64,000 nt of DNA from Xanthobacteraceae bacterium (lineage in GTDB: Bacteria; Pseudomonadota; Alphaproteobacteria; Rhizobiales; Xanthobacteraceae), in assembly GCA_030037885.1 (NCBI GenBank), contig JASHPU010000257.1:1-64000 (forward strand), in the 5' to 3' direction. Shown in pieces: positions 1 to 54,647 of the stretch; position 1 is the first letter of the stretch, and every line of letters starts with the position of its first letter. The notes beneath the pieces are model-generated. The model was given only the letters and a program-made list of their open reading frames with translations, did no database searches and was not told the DNA's origin. The position numbers and the translations under genes are program-made.

Positions 1-375
1 CACCGCGTCTACAAGCACTACGATCCGCGGGCGAAAATCATGCAGAAGACGTGCCACGAGGTACTGCACGAACTCGGCCGCAACGACCCGCTGCTCGACG
101 TCGCCATGGAGCTCGAGCGCATCGCGCTGCACGACGACTATTTCATCGAGAAAAAGCTTTATCCCAATGTCGATTTCTATTCCGGGATCACGCTGCGGGC
201 GATGGGCTTCCCCACCGCGATGTTCACCGTGCTGTTCGCGCTGGCGCGCACCGTCGGCTGGATCGCGCAGTGGAAGGAAATGATCGAAGACCCGCACCAG
301 AAGCTCGGCCGGCCGCGCCAGCTTTATACCGGCGCGGAGCGGCGCGATTATCAGCCGATGTCGAAACGAAGATGA
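1..375 (+). CDS. gltA: Citrate synthase, C-terminal fragment (truncated by window start)
   Basis: Open from position 1; [22 protein letters not shown]...[42 protein letters not shown] is the citrate synthase C-terminus. Confidence 0.95.
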
Positions 376-383
376 GGCGAGCG

Positions 384-424
384 GCGAATGGTTAATCTAC
401 CTATTCGCCATTTCGCTATTCGCG
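384..424. repeat. Inverted heptamer repeat (GCGAATG / ATTCGCC-ATTTCGCT-ATTCGCG) between convergent gltA and fabH
   Basis: GCGAATG at 384-390 faces ATTCGCC...ATTCGC at 403-423; right arm closely matches 50215-50236. Confidence 0.75.
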
Positions 425-1444
425 CTTGCCGTCGTACGCCCAGGTCAAATAAACGCCGCCCCAGGTAAACCCGCCGCCGAAAGCGGCCATGAGCAGGCGG
501 TCGCCGGCCTTCAGCCTGGCCTCGTAATCCCATAGACACAGCGGAATGGTGGCGGCGGTGGTGTTGCCGTATTTGTGAATCGTCATCATGACGCGGTCGA
601 CCGGCAGCTTCATGCGCCCGGCAGTGGCCTCGATGATACGCTTGTTGGCCTGGTGCGGCACCAGCCAGTCGATGTCCTCGCTCAACAGACGATTGCGCTT
701 CATCAGCGCGACGGCGACCTCGGCCATGCGGGCGATGGCGAATTTGTAGACCGAGGCGCCCTCCTGATGCACGTAGTGCAGGCGCTTGGCCACGGTCTCG
801 GCGGTCGGCGGCATGCGGCTGCCGCCGGCCTTTTGGTGCAGATGCCGCATGCCGGATCCATCGGAGCATAACAGTGTGTCGATGATGCCGTAGCGCCGGC
901 TCGGCTCGACCAGCACCGCGCCGGCGCCGTCGCCGAACAGCACGCAGGTGGCGCGGTCGGTGTAATCGATGATCGCCGACATTTTGTCGGCGCCGACGAC
1001 GACGATCTTGCGGTATTGCCCGCTGGCGATGAACTGCGCCGCGATGGTCAGCGCGTAGACGAAGCCGGAGCACGCCGCCTGCACGTCGAAACTGCCGACG
1101 TTGCGGATGCCGGCCATGTCGCAGATCAGATTGGCGGTCGACGGAAACACGAAATCCGGGGTCGTCGTCGCGCAGATCAGCAGTTCCACCTCGCTGGCCG
1201 GTGTTGCGGTTTTTGCCAACAGGCCGCGCACCGCCTGCGCGCCCATATGCGACGTGCCGAGCCCGGCGCCGGTGAGAATGCGGCGTTCCTTGATGCCGGT
1301 CCGCGCGACGATCCATTGGTCGCTGGTGTCGACCATTTGCGCAAGCTTGGCGTTGGTCAGCACGTCCGGCGGCACATAGCCGTGCACAGCGGTGATCGCG
1401 GCGTACTGCGGTCGTTTTCGCGGAGTTTTAGTTGCTTTGTTCAC
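416..1444 (-). CDS. fabH: 3-oxoacyl-ACP synthase III (KAS III)
   Basis: GTG start overlapping lpxB stop (GTGA); MVDTSDQWIVARTGIKERRI, AACSGFVYAL, HQANKRIIEAT and GNTTAATIPL motifs. Confidence 0.9.
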   Translation of the reverse strand: MNKATKTPRKRPQYAAITAVHGYVPPDVLTNAKLAQMVDTSDQWIVARTGIKERRILTGAGLGTSHMGAQAVRGLLAKTATPASEVELLICATTTPDFVFPSTANLICDMAGIRNVGSFDVQAACSGFVYALTIAAQFIASGQYRKIVVVGADKMSAIIDYTDRATCVLFGDGAGAVLVEPSRRYGIIDTLLCSDGSGMRHLHQKAGGSRMPPTAETVAKRLHYVHQEGASVYKFAIARMAEVAVALMKRNRLLSEDIDWLVPHQANKRIIEATAGRMKLPVDRVMMTIHKYGNTTAATIPLCLWDYEARLKAGDRLLMAAFGGGFTWGGVYLTWAYDGKRE

Positions 1445-16653: not shown

Positions 16654-17631
16654 ATGCGGCTGGCGCGCAGACGCTTGGTGCAACTGGCCGCGGCCGCGAC
16701 CATTGCGCCGGCGGCAGTGCGCTTTGCCTGGGCGCAAGCCTATCCAGCCAAGCCGATCCATCTCATTGTGCCGTCGCCGCCGGCCGGCACTTTCGACATC
16801 GTCGCACGGCTCGTCGCCAATGCGGCGGCACCGCGGCTGCACCAACAATTCGTCGTCGAAAACCGCGGCGGTGCCGGCACCAATCTCGGCACCGGCATCG
16901 TTGCTCACGCGGCGCCCGACGGCTACACGCTGCTGCTGGCCGGATCGCCGGGCGCGATCAACGCCACGCTCTACCATAATCTCGATTTTTCCTTCGCCCG
17001 CGACATCGCGCCGGTCGCCAGCATCGAGCGCGCGCCGCTGATCATGGTGGTCAACCCGTCGCTGCCGGCCCAGACCGTTCCGCAATTCATCAGCTACGCC
17101 AAACAGAATCCCGGCAAGATCAACATGGGCTCGGGCGGCGCCGGCTCGACCGGCCACGTCGCCGGCGAATTGTTCAACATGATGGCCGGGATCAAGATGG
17201 CGCACGTGCCCTATCGCGGCGAGGCACCGGCGATCACCGATCTGCTCGCCGGCCAGATCCAGGTCGTGTTCTCGACGCCCGGCTCGGCGCTTTCCTACGT
17301 CAAGGCCGGCACGCTGCGCGCGCTCGGCGTCACCAGCGCAACGCGCATGGAGGTGCTGCCGCAGGTGCCGGCGATCGCCGCGTTTTTGTCCGGCTACGAA
17401 GCGGTGTCGTGGTCCGGCATCGGCGCGCCGGCCAAGACGCCGCCCGCGATCGTCGAAAAACTCAACGGCGCCATCAATGCCGCGCTGAGCGACCCGCAGC
17501 TCAAAACGCGGCTGGCCGCGTTCGGCGCCGTGGTGATGACGTCGACGCCGGCCGAATTCGGCAAGTTCATCGCCGCCGAGATCGACAAATGGGCCAAGGT
17601 CATCAAGTTCGCCAATATCCAGGCCGACTGA
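16654..17631 (+). CDS. Tripartite tricarboxylate transporter substrate-binding protein (Bug family)
   Basis: Signal peptide, [56 protein letters not shown]. Confidence 0.92.
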   Translation: MRLARRRLVQLAAAATIAPAAVRFAWAQAYPAKPIHLIVPSPPAGTFDIVARLVANAAAPRLHQQFVVENRGGAGTNLGTGIVAHAAPDGYTLLLAGSPGAINATLYHNLDFSFARDIAPVASIERAPLIMVVNPSLPAQTVPQFISYAKQNPGKINMGSGGAGSTGHVAGELFNMMAGIKMAHVPYRGEAPAITDLLAGQIQVVFSTPGSALSYVKAGTLRALGVTSATRMEVLPQVPAIAAFLSGYEAVSWSGIGAPAKTPPAIVEKLNGAINAALSDPQLKTRLAAFGAVVMTSTPAEFGKFIAAEIDKWAKVIKFANIQAD

Positions 17632-17697
17632 CGATCATGCATTCGCCGCGTTTTGCTTAAGCCGCGCAAAACGAACAAAGTTGGGAGGACAACGCCA

Positions 17698-18678
17698 ATG
17701 AGTTTTCCGCGCCGACATTTTTTGCGTTTCGCGGGCGCCGCCGCCGGCTTAGCGGCTGCGCCGGCGGTTTCGCGGCTCGCGCGCGCGGACGCCTATCCGT
17801 CGCGCGCGGTGCGTGTCGTCGTCGGCTTTCCGCCCGGCGCCGCCACCGACATTGTCGGCCGGCTTGTTGCGCAGGCGCTGGCGCAAAAATTCGGCCAGCA
17901 GTTCTTTGTCGAGAACAAGCCGGGCGCGGGCAGCAATCTGGCCGCCGACATCGTCGCGAAGGCGCCTCCGGACGGCTACAATTTGCTGGCCATGACCGTC
18001 ACCAACGCGGTCAACGAAACGCTTTATCGGAATTTGAGCTTCGATTTCGTGCGCGATCTGGTGCCGATCGCGCGCACCATCCGCTCCGCCAACGTCCTGG
18101 TCGTCAATCTCGCTGTGCCTGCGAACAACGTTGCCGAATTCATCGCTTATGCGAAGGCCAATCCGGGAAAACTCAACTATGCCTCCTACGGCTTCGGCAC
18201 CGCACCCAATATGGCGGGCGAACTGTTCAACATGCTGGCGGGGACCAGGCTCGTCCATGTGCCGTATCATTCGAACTTCATGCCGGATCTGCTGAGTGGC
18301 CAGGTGCAATTGTCGTTTCTGCCGGTGCCGCTGATCATCGGCTTCATCCGCTCCGGCAAGGTACGCGCGCTCGGCGTCAGCGGCACGAGCCGCTCTGATG
18401 CGCTGCCGGGCGTGGCGCCGATCGCGCAGACCGTGCCGGGCTACGCGGCCGACATTTGGCACGGCATCGCCGCCCCAAAAGCGACACCGCCCGCGATCGT
18501 CGACAAGCTGCACGACAGCATCGACGGCATTCTCACCGATCCGGCGATGAAGGCGAAATTCGCCAATCTCGGCGCCGAGCCGGCGCCGCTGAGCACCGCC
18601 GATCTGCGCACTTTCATTGCCGCCGAAGTCGGCAAATGGGCCAAGGTCATCAAGTTCGCCAATATCAAAGCAGGATAG
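17698..18678 (+). CDS. Bug-family TTT substrate-binding protein (Tat-like signal)
   Basis: MSFPRRHFLRFAGAAAG signal; YPSRAVRVVVGFPPGAATDIVGRL; VENKPGAGSNLAADIVAKAPPDGYNLL. Confidence 0.92.
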   Translation: MSFPRRHFLRFAGAAAGLAAAPAVSRLARADAYPSRAVRVVVGFPPGAATDIVGRLVAQALAQKFGQQFFVENKPGAGSNLAADIVAKAPPDGYNLLAMTVTNAVNETLYRNLSFDFVRDLVPIARTIRSANVLVVNLAVPANNVAEFIAYAKANPGKLNYASYGFGTAPNMAGELFNMLAGTRLVHVPYHSNFMPDLLSGQVQLSFLPVPLIIGFIRSGKVRALGVSGTSRSDALPGVAPIAQTVPGYAADIWHGIAAPKATPPAIVDKLHDSIDGILTDPAMKAKFANLGAEPAPLSTADLRTFIAAEVGKWAKVIKFANIKAG

Positions 18679-18686
18679 CATTGACC

Positions 18687-19676
18687 ATGACGTTTCGGCG
18701 CCGAGATTTTCTGCGCATCACCGCGGGTGCGGCGGCGCTGCCGCTGCTGCACCGCGCCGCTTGCGCGCAAGCCTATCCGTCGCGTGTCATCACCATCATT
18801 GTGCCCTACCCCGCCGGCGGCCCGACCGACACGATCGCGCGCATTCTCGCTGATCGCATGGGCGCGGTGCTGCATCAAAGCGTCATCGTCGAGAACGTCA
18901 GCGGCGCCGGCGGCAGCATCGGCGTCGGCCGCGTCGCCCGCGCCGCGCCCGACGGCTATACGCTGAGCATCGGGCACGTGCAGACCCACGTTCTCAACGC
19001 CGCCGTGATGAAGCTGCCCTACGACGTGGTGAACGACTTTGCGCCGATCTCGCTGATCGCCGACACGCCGATCTGGATCATTGCGACGAAGTCCCTGCCG
19101 GCGGACGATTTCAAAAGCTTCTTGACCTGGCTGAAAACGCAGAACGGCAAAGCCACGGCCGGCACGGTCGGCATCGGTGGACCGACCGAAATCGCCGGGC
19201 TGATTTTCGCAAAGGAGACCGGCACCCAGTTCCAGACCGCGCGCTACACCGGCGGCGCGCCGCTGCTGCAGGATCTTTTGGGCGGTCATATCGATTTCGC
19301 TTTCGGCCAGGCGGCGACCTATCTGAGCTACGTGCGCCAGGGCCAGCTCAAGGCTTATGCGGTGCTGCAGCCGAAACGCTGGTGGGCGGCGCCGGACGTG
19401 CCGACCCTCGACGAACTCGGCATCCACGACATCCACGCCAGCTTTTGGCATGGCCTGTGGGCGCCGAAGGGCACGCCGCCCGACATCATCGCCAAGCTCA
19501 ATGCCGCCGTCCGCGAAGCGCTGGCCGATCCCAGCGTCCAGCAGCGCTTGCGCAATGTCGGCCAGGAGGTCTGGCCGACCGCCGAGCAGACGCCGCAGGC
19601 GCTCGCCGCCAAGCAAAAGGCCGAGATCGCGCAATGGACGCCGATCGTCAAAGCCGCCGGCATCAAGCAGGAGTGA
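18687..19676 (+). CDS. Bug-family TTT substrate-binding protein (Tat-like signal)
   Basis: MTFRRRDFLRITAGAAAL signal; YPSRVITIIVPYPAGGPTDTIARIL. Confidence 0.92.
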   Translation: MTFRRRDFLRITAGAAALPLLHRAACAQAYPSRVITIIVPYPAGGPTDTIARILADRMGAVLHQSVIVENVSGAGGSIGVGRVARAAPDGYTLSIGHVQTHVLNAAVMKLPYDVVNDFAPISLIADTPIWIIATKSLPADDFKSFLTWLKTQNGKATAGTVGIGGPTEIAGLIFAKETGTQFQTARYTGGAPLLQDLLGGHIDFAFGQAATYLSYVRQGQLKAYAVLQPKRWWAAPDVPTLDELGIHDIHASFWHGLWAPKGTPPDIIAKLNAAVREALADPSVQQRLRNVGQEVWPTAEQTPQALAAKQKAEIAQWTPIVKAAGIKQE

Positions 19677-19720
19677 CGGCAGAAGCCGCACCAAAAACCC
19701 ATTACCGAGGGAGAACACAT

Positions 19721-20692
19721 ATGTCGCTGATCGATCGCAGAACGATGTCGATGCTCACGCTTGCGGCGCTGGCATCGCCGCGCGCGCTCGCCGCGGAGCC
19801 CTATCCGTCGCGCCCGATTCATCTCATCGTCGGCTTCACGCCGGGCGCCTCGTCCGACATCGTGGCGCGCCTGTTTGCCAAAGGCGCTCAAACGCTCGTC
19901 GGCCAGAACATCATCGTCGAGAACAAGCCCGGCGCCGGATCGAGCATCGCCGCCGGCTACGTCGCGCGTGCCGCCAGGGACGGCTACACGCTGATGGCCC
20001 CCGCGTTATCGACCTTGACCTACAAGATCGTGCATCCCGAAGCGCAGTACGACATGGCCAAGGACTTTGCGCCGATCGCGCTCCTTGCCGTCGGCCCGCT
20101 GGTGATGGCCGTCGATCCCAAACTCGGCGTCAACAGCGTCAAGGAGTTCACGGCGCTCGCCAAGGCGAAGCCGGGTAAGCTCAATTTCGGCACGGTCGGC
20201 CCCGGCAGCCTACCCGATCTCGCCGCCGAACTGTACGCGCAGCGCGCCGGCGTCAAGCTCGTGCAGGTGCCCTACCCCGGCAGTCCGCAGGTCACGACGG
20301 ACCTGATCTCTGGCCGCATCCAGATGAGCTTCCAAATTACGTCGGCGATCATCGGCCAGATCAGAGCGGGCCAGATCAAGGCGCTGGCAGTCGCGACCAA
20401 CAAGCGCTCCAACCTGCTGCCCGACGTGCCCACCATGGCGGAAGCCGGCATGCCGGACTTCGACACGCCGCTCTGGTTCGGCCTCGTCGCGCCAGCCGGC
20501 ACACCGCGCCCCGTGATCGACAAGCTCGCCGCGGCGGCGAAGCAGGCGATGCATGCGCCCGCGACGGTGGATTTGTTGGCCAAGCAGGGCTTCGCTCCGG
20601 AAGACATGGGACCCGATCAGTTCGCCGCTTTCATCAAGAGCGAAATCAAGCGCTGGTCAGCCGTCGTGAGCGGCGCAGGGGTGAAAATGTAG
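19721..20692 (+). CDS. Bug-family TTT substrate-binding protein
   Basis: YPSRPIHLIVGFTPGASSDIVARL; VENKPGAGSSIAAGYVARAARDGYTLM. Confidence 0.92.
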   Translation: MSLIDRRTMSMLTLAALASPRALAAEPYPSRPIHLIVGFTPGASSDIVARLFAKGAQTLVGQNIIVENKPGAGSSIAAGYVARAARDGYTLMAPALSTLTYKIVHPEAQYDMAKDFAPIALLAVGPLVMAVDPKLGVNSVKEFTALAKAKPGKLNFGTVGPGSLPDLAAELYAQRAGVKLVQVPYPGSPQVTTDLISGRIQMSFQITSAIIGQIRAGQIKALAVATNKRSNLLPDVPTMAEAGMPDFDTPLWFGLVAPAGTPRPVIDKLAAAAKQAMHAPATVDLLAKQGFAPEDMGPDQFAAFIKSEIKRWSAVVSGAGVKM

Positions 20693-28767: not shown

Positions 28768-29013
28768 ATGAAGGCCTTGCTTTTCGCAGCTGGACTGGTC
28801 GCTGCGGCGGGCGCGCTCACGAGCAGCGCGCAGGCACAAAACTATCCGTGGTGCGCGGTTTACGGCGGCAGAGGTGGCGGCGGACAAAATTGCGGTTTTT
28901 CGACATTCGAACAGTGCATGGCGACGCTGTCCGGCATGGGTGGCTTCTGCAACCGCAATACCCAGTTCGTGCCGCCGCCTGGACCTCACCGACGCTATCG
29001 GCGGTACGAATAG
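28768..29013 (+). CDS. DUF3551-like secreted protein
   Basis: Signal peptide then QNYPWCAVYGG...NCGFSTFEQCMATLSGMGGFCNRNTQF. Confidence 0.85.
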   Translation: MKALLFAAGLVAAAGALTSSAQAQNYPWCAVYGGRGGGGQNCGFSTFEQCMATLSGMGGFCNRNTQFVPPPGPHRRYRRYE

Positions 29014-29118
29014 AGATCATTCGAGCCAAGCGTGCTCCGGCGGCAAACATCGCCGCTCCGGAGCGGAGAGGTCCATCGGGGGCCGTGGCTGCAGCAGCCC
29101 AATGATTTGGAGGGGCGC

Positions 29119-29385
29119 ATGAGGCTCCGGCTTTTCCTCGCAAGTTCGATCATCGGCTTGGCCGGCTTCGCAACCGCTGCGCAGGCGCAAAACTATCCGT
29201 GGTGCGCCGACTACGGCGGGGAGATGGGAGGTTCGAGCAATTGCGGTTTTTCGACTTTCGAGCAGTGCATGGCGGCGCTATCCGGCATGGGCGGGTTCTG
29301 TAACCGCAACACGCAGTATGTACCGTCCGGCCCCGCCCCCGGCACGCAGTTGCGACGGCGACATCGACGGCCGCGGCACCGTTGA
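29119..29385 (+). CDS. DUF3551-like secreted protein, tandem paralogue
   Basis: QNYPWCADYGGEMGGSSNCGFSTFEQCMAALSGMGGFCNRNTQY. Confidence 0.85.
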   Translation: MRLRLFLASSIIGLAGFATAAQAQNYPWCADYGGEMGGSSNCGFSTFEQCMAALSGMGGFCNRNTQYVPSGPAPGTQLRRRHRRPRHR

Positions 29386-47832: not shown

Positions 47833-48573
47833 TTACTGGCGCCTCGGATCGGTTGCGTCGGCAATCGGCGGCTTTGGCATCGGCGCTTCGTGGACGTTGG
47901 CGGCGGAGCCGGGTTTTTTGCCCTCGTCGTCCGGCGAATCACCCTCGCCTTGCGCACCCGTTTCATCGGCGAACAGCGATGGATCGGTCAACGTCATCGG
48001 TCCGCCGACCGGCGCCGAATTGATGCGGTCGATCTGCGGACCGGCCTTGACCGTGCGTCCGGCGGACAGATCGTTGATGATGCGCGTCAAGCGGTCGGGC
48101 GTAAGATCCTCGTAATAATCGGCGTTGATCTGCACCATCGGCGCGTTGACGCAGGCGCCGAGGCACTCGACCTCGACCCAGGAGAATTTGCCGTCGGCGC
48201 TGACCGCGTTCTCGTCGCCGATCATCCGGCGCAGCACTTTCTTCAGCTCGTCGGCGCCGCGCAGCACGCACGGCGTCGTACCGCAGAATTGCACGTGGAA
48301 TTTGCCGACCGGCGCCAGGTTGAACATAGTGTAGAAGGTCGCGATTTCGAGCACGCGGATGTTCGCCATGCCGAGCAGGTCGGCGACCGCCTCGATCGCC
48401 TTCTGCGGCAGCCAGCCGCCGCACTGCTGCTGCGCCCGCCACAGGATCGGGATGACCGCCGACTGCTGCCGGCCGCGCGGATATTTCTCGATCTGCGCCC
48501 TGGCCCAGCCAAGATTCTCGGACGTGAAGGCGAAGCTCGGCGGCTGTTTCTCGGCAAGGCGACGCACGCTCAT
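47833..48573 (-). CDS. nuoE: NADH-quinone oxidoreductase subunit E with C-terminal extension
   Basis: Thioredoxin-like [2Fe-2S]: [14 protein letters not shown]...[16 protein letters not shown]. Confidence 0.94.
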
Positions 48574-49760
48574 CGGTCGACCTCGCCGAACACGATGTCG
48601 ATCGAGCCGAGCACCGCCGAGACGTCGGCCAGCATGTGGCCGCGGCAGAGAAAATCCATCGCCTGCAGGTGGGGGAAGCTCGGTGCGCGGATCTTGCACT
48701 TGTACGGCCTGTTGCTGCCGTCGGCGATCAGATAGACGCCGAATTCGCCTTTCGGCGCCTCGACCGCAGCGTAAGCCTCGCCGGCCGGCACCTTGAAACC
48801 CTCGGTGTACAGCTTGAAATGATGGATCAGCGCCTCCATCGAGCGCTTCATCTCGGCGCGGCGCGGCGGCGCGATTTTACGATCTTCGATCAGTACGGGC
48901 CCCTGCCCGTCGGGCGCGCGCAGCTTGTCGATGCATTGCTTCATGATGCGTATGGACTGGCGCATCTCCTCCATGCGTATCAGATAGCGGTCGTAGCAGT
49001 CGCCGTTTTTGCCGACCGGAATGTCGAACGCGAGCTCGGAATAGCATTCGTAGGGCTGCGCCCGGCGCAAATCCCAGGCGGCGCCGGAGCCGCGCACCAT
49101 GACGCCGGAAAAACCCCGCGCCCAAGCGTCTTCCAGCTTGACCACGCCGATACCGACATTGCGCTGCTTGAAGATGCGGTTGTCGGTGAGCAGCACCTCG
49201 ATATCGTCGCAGACTTTCAGGAACGGATCGCAGAATGCCGCGATGTCGTCGATCAGCTGCGGCGGCAGGTCCTGGTGCACGCCGCCGACGCGGAAATAGG
49301 CCGCGTGCAAACGCGAGCCGGAGGCGCGCTCGTAGAACACCATGAGCTTCTCGCGCTCCTCGAAGCCCCACAGCGGCGGGGTGAGCGCGCCGACGTCCAT
49401 CGCCTGCGTCGTGACATTGAGCAAATGCGACAACAGGCGGCCAATCTCGCAGTACAGCACACGGATGAGCTGTGCGCGCCGGGGTATATCGATGCCGAGC
49501 AGCTTTTCCGCCGCCAGGCAGAACGCGTGCTCCTGGTTGATCGGCGCGACGTAATCGAGCCGGTCGAAATACGGAATCGCTTGCAGATAGGTCTTGTGCT
49601 CGATCAGCTTCTCGGTGCCGCGATGCAGAAGGCCGATATGCGGATCGACGCGCTCCACCACCTCGCCGTCGAGCTCGAGCACCAGCCGCAGCACGCCGTG
49701 CGCCGCCGGGTGCTGCGGCCCGAAATTGATGGTAAAGTTGCGAGTGGAGGCCTCTGTCAT
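48570..49760 (-). CDS. nuoD: NADH-quinone oxidoreductase subunit D
   Basis: [47 protein letters not shown]. Confidence 0.96.
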
Positions 49761-49779: not shown

Positions 49780-49814
49780 GCGAATGGCGAATGGCGAATG
49801 GCGAATGGCGAATG
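49780..49814. repeat. Tandem heptamer array (GCGAATG)x5, left arm of candidate four-helix-bundle element
   Basis: Five exact consecutive 7-bp units. Confidence 0.95.
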
Positions 49815-49830
49815 GTGCGCGCGTCGGATA

Positions 49831-50208
49831 TCAACGCTTCTCCTGCAGCGAGCGAATGAGCAAGCGAAGCATCTTTCCCAAAGCCTCGCATTGTTGCATC
49901 GGGCCGATTATCTCGCCGCTCTTTATCAGGCCGACGCATGCGGCCAGCTGTAAATGCGTCTCCAATTCCTTCAAAGAACCCTGAGCGATACGAAGGTATT
50001 GGATAAAGGATTGGGTATTCTCCCGACCGTGACCTTCCGCGATATTCGCCGGTATCGATGCCGCCGCTCGCCGGATCTGAGCAGCAAGTCCGAACATCTC
50101 CTCTCTCGGGAAAGCGCGAGTGAGGCGATAGCTGAGTTCGGCGAGAGTCATTCCCTCCTGCCAAACACGAAGGTCGCGATAGGATTTTATCGTTCGACCG
50201 CTCGACAT
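49831..50208 (-). CDS. Four-helix-bundle protein (23S rRNA intervening-sequence-protein-like family)
   Basis: [82 protein letters not shown]. Confidence 0.9.
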
Positions 50209-50214
50209 TCATCT

Positions 50215-50247
50215 CTATTCGCCACTCGCTATTCGCCATTCGCCATT
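50215..50247. repeat. Inverted heptamer array (ATTCGCC/ACTCGCT)n, right arm of candidate element
   Basis: ATTCGCC ACTCGCT ATTCGCC ATTCGCC ATT at 50217-50247, reverse complement of the left-arm unit. Confidence 0.92.
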
Positions 50248-50681
50248 ACCATCTGCAAATCTGCCGCCTTTTTGGCCTTGGCGGCGAGCCGCCCATTAAA
50301 CCTGTCCCACTTCACCACGAAGCGTTCGTGGCGGCCTTCGCCGATCAGATCGATGCCGTCGTGGGCCTTGACCTTGAAGGTGATCCGATTGTCAACGATC
50401 TCGGTTACTTCGACGTCGACCGTTACCGTCAACCCAGGCGGCGTTGCGGCGAGATGGCTGACATCGACGTGCACGCCGACGCTGCCTTCGCCGGGATCGA
50501 GATGCGGCGCCAACAGCTGCGTGCAGGTCCACTCCATCAGCACGATCATGAAGCCGGTGGCGAACACCTTCGGCATCGCCGCGATCTCGGGCGCCTCCGG
50601 ATAGGTGTACGGCACCGTCTTGTTCTCCGGCACCCTGTAGGCGAAGCGGTGGGTAAGCCCCCGTTTGAGCGTGGGTTTCAT
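50229..50681 (-). CDS. Thioesterase, FlK (fluoroacetyl-CoA thioesterase)-like hot-dog fold
   Basis: MKPTLKRGLTHRFAYRVPENKTVPYTYPEAPEIAAMPKVFATGFMIVLMEWTCTQLLAPHLDPGEGSVGVHVDVSHLAATPPG; last residues MANGE* lie in the heptamer repeat. Confidence 0.85.
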   Translation of the reverse strand: MKPTLKRGLTHRFAYRVPENKTVPYTYPEAPEIAAMPKVFATGFMIVLMEWTCTQLLAPHLDPGEGSVGVHVDVSHLAATPPGLTVTVDVEVTEIVDNRITFKVKAHDGIDLIGEGRHERFVVKWDRFNGRLAAKAKKAADLQMVMANGE

Positions 50682-50682
50682 C

Positions 50683-51306
50683 TCAACCCCCCTGCCCGCC
50701 GCCCGGCTTCGACGCCTTCTCGTCGCCGGGCAGGACGTAGTCGGTGCCTTCCCAAGGCGACAGGAAATCGAAGGTGCGGAATTCCTGGGTCAGCCGCACC
50801 GGCTCGTAGACGACGCGCTTGAGTTCGTCGTCGTAGCGCACCTCGACAAAGCCGGTCAGCGGAAAATCCTTGCGCAGCGGATGGCCCTCGAAACCGTAAT
50901 CGGTCAGGATGCGGCGCATATCCGGATGGCCGGTGAACACGATGCCGTAAAGATCGAACACTTCGCGTTCGAACCAATCGGCGCCGGCGTAAACGTCGAT
51001 GATGGACGGGACCGGCATCGTCTCGTGGGTCGCCGTCTTCACGCGCACGCGCACGTTATGCTTGGGCGAGAGCAGGTGATAGACCACGTCGAAGCGCCGC
51101 TCGCGGCTCGGCCAGTCGACCGCGGTGATATCGATGATGCAGCAGAACTGGCAGCGCGGGTCGTCGCGCAGAAAGCGCATCACCGCGACGATGTCGGCGG
51201 CGCTGGCGGTGACGTTCAGCTCGTGAAAGTCCACGCTATAGGCAGTGACCGCGTTGGGCAGCGCGGCAGCGATGGTCCGGCCGAGCGTATCGAGCGTCTC
51301 GTTCAT
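50683..51306 (-). CDS. nuoC: NADH-quinone oxidoreductase subunit C
   Basis: [43 protein letters not shown]. Confidence 0.96.
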
Positions 51307-52639: not shown

Positions 52640-53635
52640 ATGCAGCCGACGAGCGTTCGGCGGCACGGCTTACGCGCGCGCGTCATCGTGGCGCTGGCGG
52701 GTACGCTTACGCTTGCCGCAGCGCTGCCGGCCGCCGCGGAAAACTTTCCGGATCACCCGATCAAGCTGATCGTGCCGTTCGGACCCGGCGGTCCGCCGGA
52801 CGTGGCGGCTCGCCTCATCGGCGCGTACCTCTCCGACCATCTCGGTCCGGTGGTGGTCGAGAACCACGTCGGCGCCGGCGGCACGCTGGCGGCGCGCGCC
52901 GTCGCCACGGCAGCGCCAGACGGCTACACATTATTGGCCGGCACCGCCGGCTCGCTGTCGATCAGCCCGCAGCTGTACAAGAACGCCGGCATCCACCCGC
53001 TGAAGGATTTTGCCGCGGTGGCGCTCGTCTCCTCGGCGCCGCTGGTGCTGGCGGTCCACAAGTCGGTTCCGGCGCACAGCGTCAAGGCGCTGGTCGCCTA
53101 CGCCAAGGCCAATCCGGGCAAATTGAACTACGGCGCGGTGATCGGCACGCCGCCGCACTTGAGCGGCGAAATGTTCAAGCACATCACCGGCGCCGACATC
53201 GTGTTCGTGCCGTACAAATCGGCAAGCCAGGCGACCACCGACGTGCTAGCGGGCCAGATGAACATGACCTTCGAAGGCACGACCGCCATCGTGCCGCTGA
53301 TCAAGTCCGGCCAGTTGCGGGCGCTGGCAGTGACCGCCCCGCAGCGCATCCCGGAACTGCCGGATGTGCCGACCATGGATGAACTCGGCTACCGCGGCAT
53401 GCCGCCGGATTCGTGGCAGGCGATCGTGGCGCCGGCCGGCACGCCGGCGCCGATCATCGACAAGATCAATGTGGTGGTGAACCAGGGCCTGGCGACGCCG
53501 GCGATGCAGGAAAAAATCAGGCGGCTCGGCGGCGTGCCGGAACCGCATTCGGTCAAGGAGTTTGCCGACTTCATCGCCGCCCAATACAAGCGCTGGGGCG
53601 ACGTGCTTCGCATCACCGGCGTGATGCTCAATTGA
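52640..53635 (+). CDS. Bug-family TTT substrate-binding protein
   Basis: [52 protein letters not shown]. Confidence 0.92.
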
Positions 53636-53651
53636 GGTAGAAACGCGAAAT

Positions 53652-54647
53652 ATGCAAATGCCTCATTCGTTGGTCCGCTTTCGACTCGCGTTCGTCCTGT
53701 TGGCCGCTGCGGCCGCCGTCCTGCTCGCTGCGCCGTCGAGCCGGGCCGACGATTATCCGTCGCGGCCGGTAAAAATCATCGTGCCGTTCGGCGCCGGCGG
53801 CCCGACCGACGTCTATACCCGCGACATCGCCGAGGAATTGCGCCAAGCGCTGCACCAGCCATTCGTCATGGAGAACCGCCCGGGCGCCGGCACCACCATC
53901 GGCACCGAGCTTGTCGCCCACGCGACGCCCGACGGCTACACGCTGCTGATGGCCAGCAGCACCCAGACCGTCAACGAGACATTGTACGAAAACAAGCCGT
54001 ACAGCCTGCTGCGCGACCTCGTGCCGGTCGCACCGTTGATGGAGAACGATCTGGTGCTGGTCGTAAACCCGTCGGTACCGGCAAAAAATCTGACCGCGTT
54101 CTTGGCGCTGGCGCGGGCCAAGCCGGGAACCATCAATTTCGGTTCATCCGGGCCCGGCTCGAACTATCACATGGCGGCGGAGCTTCTGAAGCAGCTCACC
54201 GGCATCAACATCGTGCACGTGCCGTACAAGGGTTCCACCGGCATGCGCATCGATATCCTCAGCGGCCAAATCCAAATGCTGTTCGACTCCATTCCGACCA
54301 TGACTCCCCAAATCAAGGCTGGCAAAGTGCGCGCGCTGGGCACCAGCGGCCTCAAGCGCTCGCCCATTCTGCCGGACGTGCCGACCATCGCCGAAACCGT
54401 TCCGGGCTTTCAGTTCAGCCAATGGGTCGGCTTCATGGCGCCGAAAGGCACGCCGGCGCCGATCATCGACACGCTCAATCGCACCATCACGGCGATCTTG
54501 AGCCGACCCGACATCAAGGCGTCCTGGGAGGCGCAAGGCGCAACACCGATGGTGATGACGCAGCCGCAATTCGCCGCCTTCATGCAGGCGCAGGTCGACA
54601 AATGGGCCAAGGTGATCAAGACCAATCACATCGCGCTTATTCATTAA
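53652..54647 (+). CDS. Bug-family TTT substrate-binding protein
   Basis: YPSRPVKIIVPFGAGGPTDVYTRDIA; MENRPGAGTTIGTELVAHATPDGYTLL. Confidence 0.92.
   Translation: MQMPHSLVRFRLAFVLLAAAAAVLLAAPSSRADDYPSRPVKIIVPFGAGGPTDVYTRDIAEELRQALHQPFVMENRPGAGTTIGTELVAHATPDGYTLLMASSTQTVNETLYENKPYSLLRDLVPVAPLMENDLVLVVNPSVPAKNLTAFLALARAKPGTINFGSSGPGSNYHMAAELLKQLTGINIVHVPYKGSTGMRIDILSGQIQMLFDSIPTMTPQIKAGKVRALGTSGLKRSPILPDVPTIAETVPGFQFSQWVGFMAPKGTPAPIIDTLNRTITAILSRPDIKASWEAQGATPMVMTQPQFAAFMQAQVDKWAKVIKTNHIALIH

Follow-up and report, generated by a model that had tools for sequence, protein, structure and literature searches.

Within the 64,000-nucleotide stretch of Xanthobacteraceae DNA analysed here (the window; contig JASHPU010000257.1), two unrelated minus-strand genes end inside arrays of the same seven-nucleotide repeat, and this raises the question of how a repeat comes to supply the ends of proteins. 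One gene (50229-50681, minus strand) codes for a FlK-like (fluoroacetyl-CoA-type) thioesterase of 150 amino acids, as judged by a match to PF22636 (E=1.6e-34) and by orthologues; the other is fabH (416-1384, minus strand), which codes for beta-ketoacyl-ACP synthase III (PRK09352/TIGR00747, and orthologues). The thioesterase reading frame finishes AAT GGC GAA TAG CGA within the heptamer array at 50212-50250, which encodes its final residues, MANGE, and the TAG stop (50229-50231, minus strand). Likewise, fabH finishes AAG CGC GAA TAG CGA within the array at 401-423, the right arm of a hairpin that gives the gene its last two codons and its stop (416-418, minus strand). The first-pass annotation had placed both TAGs inside heptamer arms and read both as GC GAA TAG CGA, which we confirm. 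It had also treated the shared frame as a telling coincidence, but the frame follows automatically from the repeat, in which the TAG of GCGAATAG is the one regular stop; since pure array sequence contains no other, any arm-supplied stop must read GC GAA TAG CGA. The 'homologous position' claimed for the two stops holds within the 7-mer and fails across the arm, since the unit used differs between the two genes - fabH uses the outermost, the thioesterase one lying two to three units in. The pair of arms at 50215 flanks an S23 gene, and the fabH one belongs to a short gene-less hairpin.

The S23-bearing copy (49780-50250, 471 bp) sits within the nuo operon, between the thioesterase gene and nuoD, the latter lying downstream of the element (48570-49760, minus strand, NuoD equivalog match). 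Upstream of the thioesterase gene is nuoC (50683-51306, minus strand), recognised by orthologues across the order and by its C-terminal motif. The upstream arm (50212-50250; 5' on the nuo coding strand) reads GCGAATG/GCGAATA/GCGAGTG/GCGAATA on the minus strand, and the downstream arm (49780-49818, plus strand) is inverted relative to it and pairs with it in the predicted fold. The gene between them (49831-50208, minus strand), co-directional with nuo, belongs to the S23, or 23S rRNA-intervening-sequence, family of four-helix-bundle proteins (PF05635, E=6e-35; TIGR02436, NF008911). The short hairpin (378-423; arms at approximately 378-391 and 401-423; fold z=-3.2) occupies the junction between fabH and the 3' part of a citrate synthase gene convergent to it (1-375, plus strand, PF00285), whose native stop lies 2 nt before the hairpin. 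An Rfam search of the window returned two tRNAs only.

A pattern search of the whole genome yielded 158 array matches, 72 of them forward and 86 reverse, where a reversed control gave 1 and 0; the matches resolve into about 33 inverted heptamer elements. Nearly all are built alike, with a GCGAATR array on the left, its inverted counterpart on the right and a short interior between the two. These inverted 7-mer arrays measure about 46-140 bp, and apart from that at 50215 most copies are short hairpins without a gene. Structure prediction pairs the arms as RNA stems, with z scores from -3.2 to -8.9 (-4.96 for the S23 element). No co-evolution of arms was found, in that an element's own arms match no better than arms swapped between elements (p=0.97). 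One copy (L053:3860-3987) and its orthologues L164 and L178 have an interior with GGAGCTTTCACGAGTCA-like segments, one to three repeats of which stand between the heptamer blocks in a species-variable manner.

A survey of the located copies and their flanks in this genome, a 309-contig draft whose genes were called by a codon-usage script rather than taken from curated annotation, places the elements at gene ends. The predicted junctions that carry an element comprise 12 convergent, 16 tandem and 5 divergent, against 23, 124 and 34 among those that do not, such that convergent junctions are enriched for elements (12/33 versus 23/181, OR 3.9, p=0.0019). Of 40 element-facing gene 3' ends, 35 fall within a span of -43 to +24 nt around the edge of the element. 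A TAG stop within a continuing array terminates 9 of the 36 element-facing ends compared with 2 of 189 control ends, the ends at L033, L034 and L050 being borderline under the strict continuing-array rule; the association between gene stops and arms that the first-pass annotation had suggested looking for among all genomic copies thus exceeds chance. When only two cases were in view, sharing a frame identity that is automatic, it was reasonable to ask whether two genes had merely happened to run into repeats within one window, but the genome-wide figures, together with 15/47 versus 0/27 for nuoC in other genera (see below), make this highly improbable. The effect is also not restricted to the minus strand, as had been supposed: as four of the nine in-array stops belong to genes on the plus strand at their locus (L036, L042, L045 and L053), stop donation is not tied to one strand. 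In pure array sequence, inward reading meets 68 stops in 1160 codons and outward reading none in 1160. The first inward stop comes earlier than in shuffled sequence (median 26 versus 45 nt); at stopping all three frames the arms do no better than shuffled sequence (17 versus 18 of 56 sides). TAG is over-represented at element-facing ends outside the arms as well (15/26, versus 39/170 in the background).

What do these arrays do to the proteins they terminate? In FabH, the element and an AYDGKRE/K end are common to three close relatives (95-98% identity). Element-free congeners end in AYDGR, AYDSQ, AYNPQ, AY and so forth, and as these ends differ the FabH tail is naturally variable. The thioesterase measures 143-145 amino acids in element-free congeners, where its stop overlaps the nuoD start (TGATGGC and similar), against 150 in the present genome (G000) and 148 in several congeners that have degenerate in-phase 7-mers at this place; in G019, for example, the gene ends GCAAATG-GCGAATA-GCCGATA-GCAAATG-GCGAACA. 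To judge from the degenerate 7-mers of these congeners, the array at the thioesterase end looks old. In several congeners degenerate in-phase 7-mers make up both the thioesterase end and the nuoD start, which gives the impression of an old array taken over as the stop of one gene and the start codon of the other.

Eleven further genes were compared with element-free orthologues, most of which differ by 15-30%, so that what each gene looked like before insertion is an inference. Length equals that of the element-free orthologues at L033, L036, L049 (both genes) and L053, and exceeds it by a few residues at L034 (both genes), L042 and the right gene of L045, as it does in the thioesterase; L043 has an altered tail, and the left gene of L045 falls within the natural range. 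Conserved sequence is lost in none of the compared genes, which are as long as their element-free counterparts or a few residues longer, contrary to the earlier expectation that insertion costs residues. At L036 and L053 length is the same without the element, so the native stop lies in register with the first unit. At L033 the element-free orthologue in G002 has an identical end (KLE, then TAG), so the native stop there merely abuts the array; for that copy this is the outcome that the first-pass annotation had named as refuting its reading. What survives of the idea that the arm is a ready-made stop is that it abuts or overlaps 3' ends genome-wide, that many genes end on its TAG, and that few C-terminal residues are changed; the coincidence of frame, the restriction to one strand and the cost in residues find no support.

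As an independent check, we turned to S23 homologues from public genomes. GCGAATR arms lie on both sides of the gene at 32 of 80 S23 loci and on one side at 8 of 80. In 46 of 90 loci (family-level loci included), many of them alphaproteobacterial, S23 is found between nuoC and nuoD; among these are nine of the ten S23 genes in the other sampled genomes of the family. The nuoC TAG is taken from the arm in 15 of 47 distinct ends with an S23 element versus 0 of 27 without (p=6e-4, a value that overstates independence, the loci being from related taxa). Examples of such arm-supplied ends are PGDEKRSGE in Bradyrhizobium and GDEKRSE in Rhodopseudomonas. Past the conserved GDEK there are 2-5 residues with the element (outliers 13 and 15) and mostly 2-9 without; with tails of such similar length, the switch to an arm-borne stop shows no cost, here in a different gene and in different genera. 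Some S23 loci of Nostoc and of Planctomycetota have arms as well.

Among 20 genomes of the genus, S23 turned up in one (G000; several of the assemblies are incomplete), so that it was not seen as a constant partner of the hairpins there, and the congeners G018 and G009 carry many hairpins with no S23 detected. Across 101 genomes of the family, at least 10 exact array hits occur in 6 of 11 S23-bearing versus 1 of 90 S23-free genomes (p=2e-6); a few of the hits in an S23-bearing genome come from the arms of the S23 element itself, and the sampled genomes are related. High hairpin copy number thus goes with S23 across the family, a correlation and not proof of mobilisation. A MITE-like origin of the short hairpins from a gene-bearing element would be one reading of the arm heptamer that they share with the S23 element and of their abundance mainly in S23-bearing genomes of the family; set against it are the many hairpins of G018 and G009. 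A search for target-site duplications yielded few empty sites (e.g. L052 in G015 and G002), which have diverged too far for a duplication to be recognised.

We consider it likely that an inverted-repeat family with degenerate GCGAATR arms settles, or survives, at and just past gene 3' ends, and that stop donation is a by-product of the repeat sequence and of selection for protein-sparing insertions, not an evolved stop-supplying device. Both arms point inward, such that a reading frame entering from either side would read the GCGAATAG-bearing strand, and because 7 = 1 mod 3 an in-frame TAG would often be met within a few units. An element placed right after a native stop would change nothing; one that interrupted or removed the native stop would have its arm TAG end the protein a few residues later. 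Insertion into a pre-existing gene end would, in that order of events, be presumably close to neutral. In sister species the same sites hold different arms, nothing, palindromes unrelated to the heptamer family (GTCATTGCGAG...CAATCC and the like) or, once, a small gene insert, with other palindromic repeats or inserts at L031, L033, L037, L040b, L044, L047 and L049; across four species, element positions persist although the arms change. With such turnover, gene ends look like permissive landing sites in general, for which the heptamer family would need no particular aim at stop codons. The unrelated palindromes at such intergenic sites include a GTCATTGCGAG...AAGCAATCC type and others (loci L150-L229; G018, G009, G015, G002), and at the L049 site G009 has a small insert resembling a putative toxin-antitoxin gene pair.

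Aim is what a target preference would imply: the element would recognise heptamer-like or TAG-containing sequence at gene ends (e.g. GAATAGC), and the native TAG would only be incorporated into the array. The excess of TAG at element-facing ends outside the arms is what such a preference predicts, and element-free or remnant orthologues often have TAG already, as at L033 in G002, L045 left (4/4) and L053 left (5/6). At the last two, where element-free outgroup orthologues are rich in TAG, the stop may in some cases be older than the element, or the sites may have lost an old array by decay. However, element-free orthologues use TGA where carriers use TAG at L036 right (G006 and G008), at L042 left, in most cases at L043 right and in 21 of 27 nuoC genes without S23, and some 'element-free' outgroups contain decayed heptamers, so that their TAG may itself be a relic; we find a target preference possible but doubtful. 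Could the stop-adjacent hairpin instead be kept for a function, its RNA stem protecting the 3' end, being cut by RNase III or slowing translation of the upstream gene, with the donated stop putting the stem where ribosomes terminate? The predicted stems are strong, positions persist across four species despite arm turnover, and precedents exist, since in E. coli REPs lying less than 16 nt from a stop codon reduce translation (earlier work cited in PMC12306157) and the Coxiella S23 element is excised from its RNA by RNase III (PMC4990558). That sister species lose copies or carry unrelated repeats at the same sites, and that an element's arms are no better matched than swapped ones, leads us to regard a retained function as unlikely.

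The reading that we prefer, of a repeat settling or surviving at gene ends with stop donation as a by-product, has company, as donation of stops by short repeats is already documented for GTAG REPs and TAACTGA heptamers. GTAG REPs (PMC3733652) are palindromes of 20-40 bp that carry a GTAG tag and often come with a RAYT transposase. Like these, the present elements are short palindromic repeats of high copy number that lie chiefly at convergent or co-directional junctions and within 20 bp of a 3' end; they are multi-copy, intergenic and 3'-end-adjacent and may supply TAG stops. Unlike GTAG REPs, they have arms built as 7-mer arrays (elements of about 46-140 bp, in place of a shorter palindrome with that tag), and S23, carried by one copy, is the only gene identified inside arms in the window. 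The TAACTGA heptamers of Beggiatoaceae and cyanobacteria (PMC4679880) likewise form 7-mer arrays whose forward repeats contain stops and overlap ORF ends, and their insertions succeed mainly at protein edges; they are, however, direct repeats that mostly face start codons and have stops in all three frames, with no inverted arms described and S23 not mentioned. The Coxiella IVS (PMC4990558) consists of an S23 ORF with inverted terminal repeats and heptameric repeats by the ORF, and is excised by RNase III. The likeness extends to size (about 0.43-0.47 kb), to an S23 (PF05635) ORF framed by long-stem inverted repeats and to variable-number heptamers beside it, whereas the element described here lies in a protein-coding operon instead of the 23S rRNA gene, has a different heptamer sequence and a stem that is predicted only. 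Literature searches for the GCGAATR 7-mer itself and for S23 in nuo operons returned nothing relevant; the heptamer family, its S23 member and the nuoC-nuoD home were not found in the literature searched.

These parallels invite a bolder and tentative proposal, which we think could be right but would not expect to be: that S23 with inverted 7-mer arrays constitutes a type of mobile element that is widespread in protein-coding operons, typically between nuoC and nuoD, and is related to rRNA intervening sequences, and that the short hairpins are its non-autonomous progeny, spread by S23 as RAYTs relate to REPs and persisting at gene ends because inward TAGs make insertion nearly harmless. The case offers, in one lineage, a repeat that sits at gene ends at almost no cost, its stop-bearing strand inward and its stop-free strand outward. 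It also ties the enigmatic S23 family, known from rRNA intervening sequences, to inverted 7-mer arms in the respiratory complex I operon across many alphaproteobacteria, and the association between S23 and the arms is a testable lead on both the role of the S23 protein and the spread of the repeat.

Other repeated sequence is present in the window. At 28828-29325 a repeat search showed a sequence of at least 87 bp that is present twice, 351 bp apart and with 86-90% similarity. Several tandem paralogues with shared segments (families D1-D8), resembling putative tripartite-tricarboxylate-type binding proteins, lie at 16731-20530 and 52850-54620.
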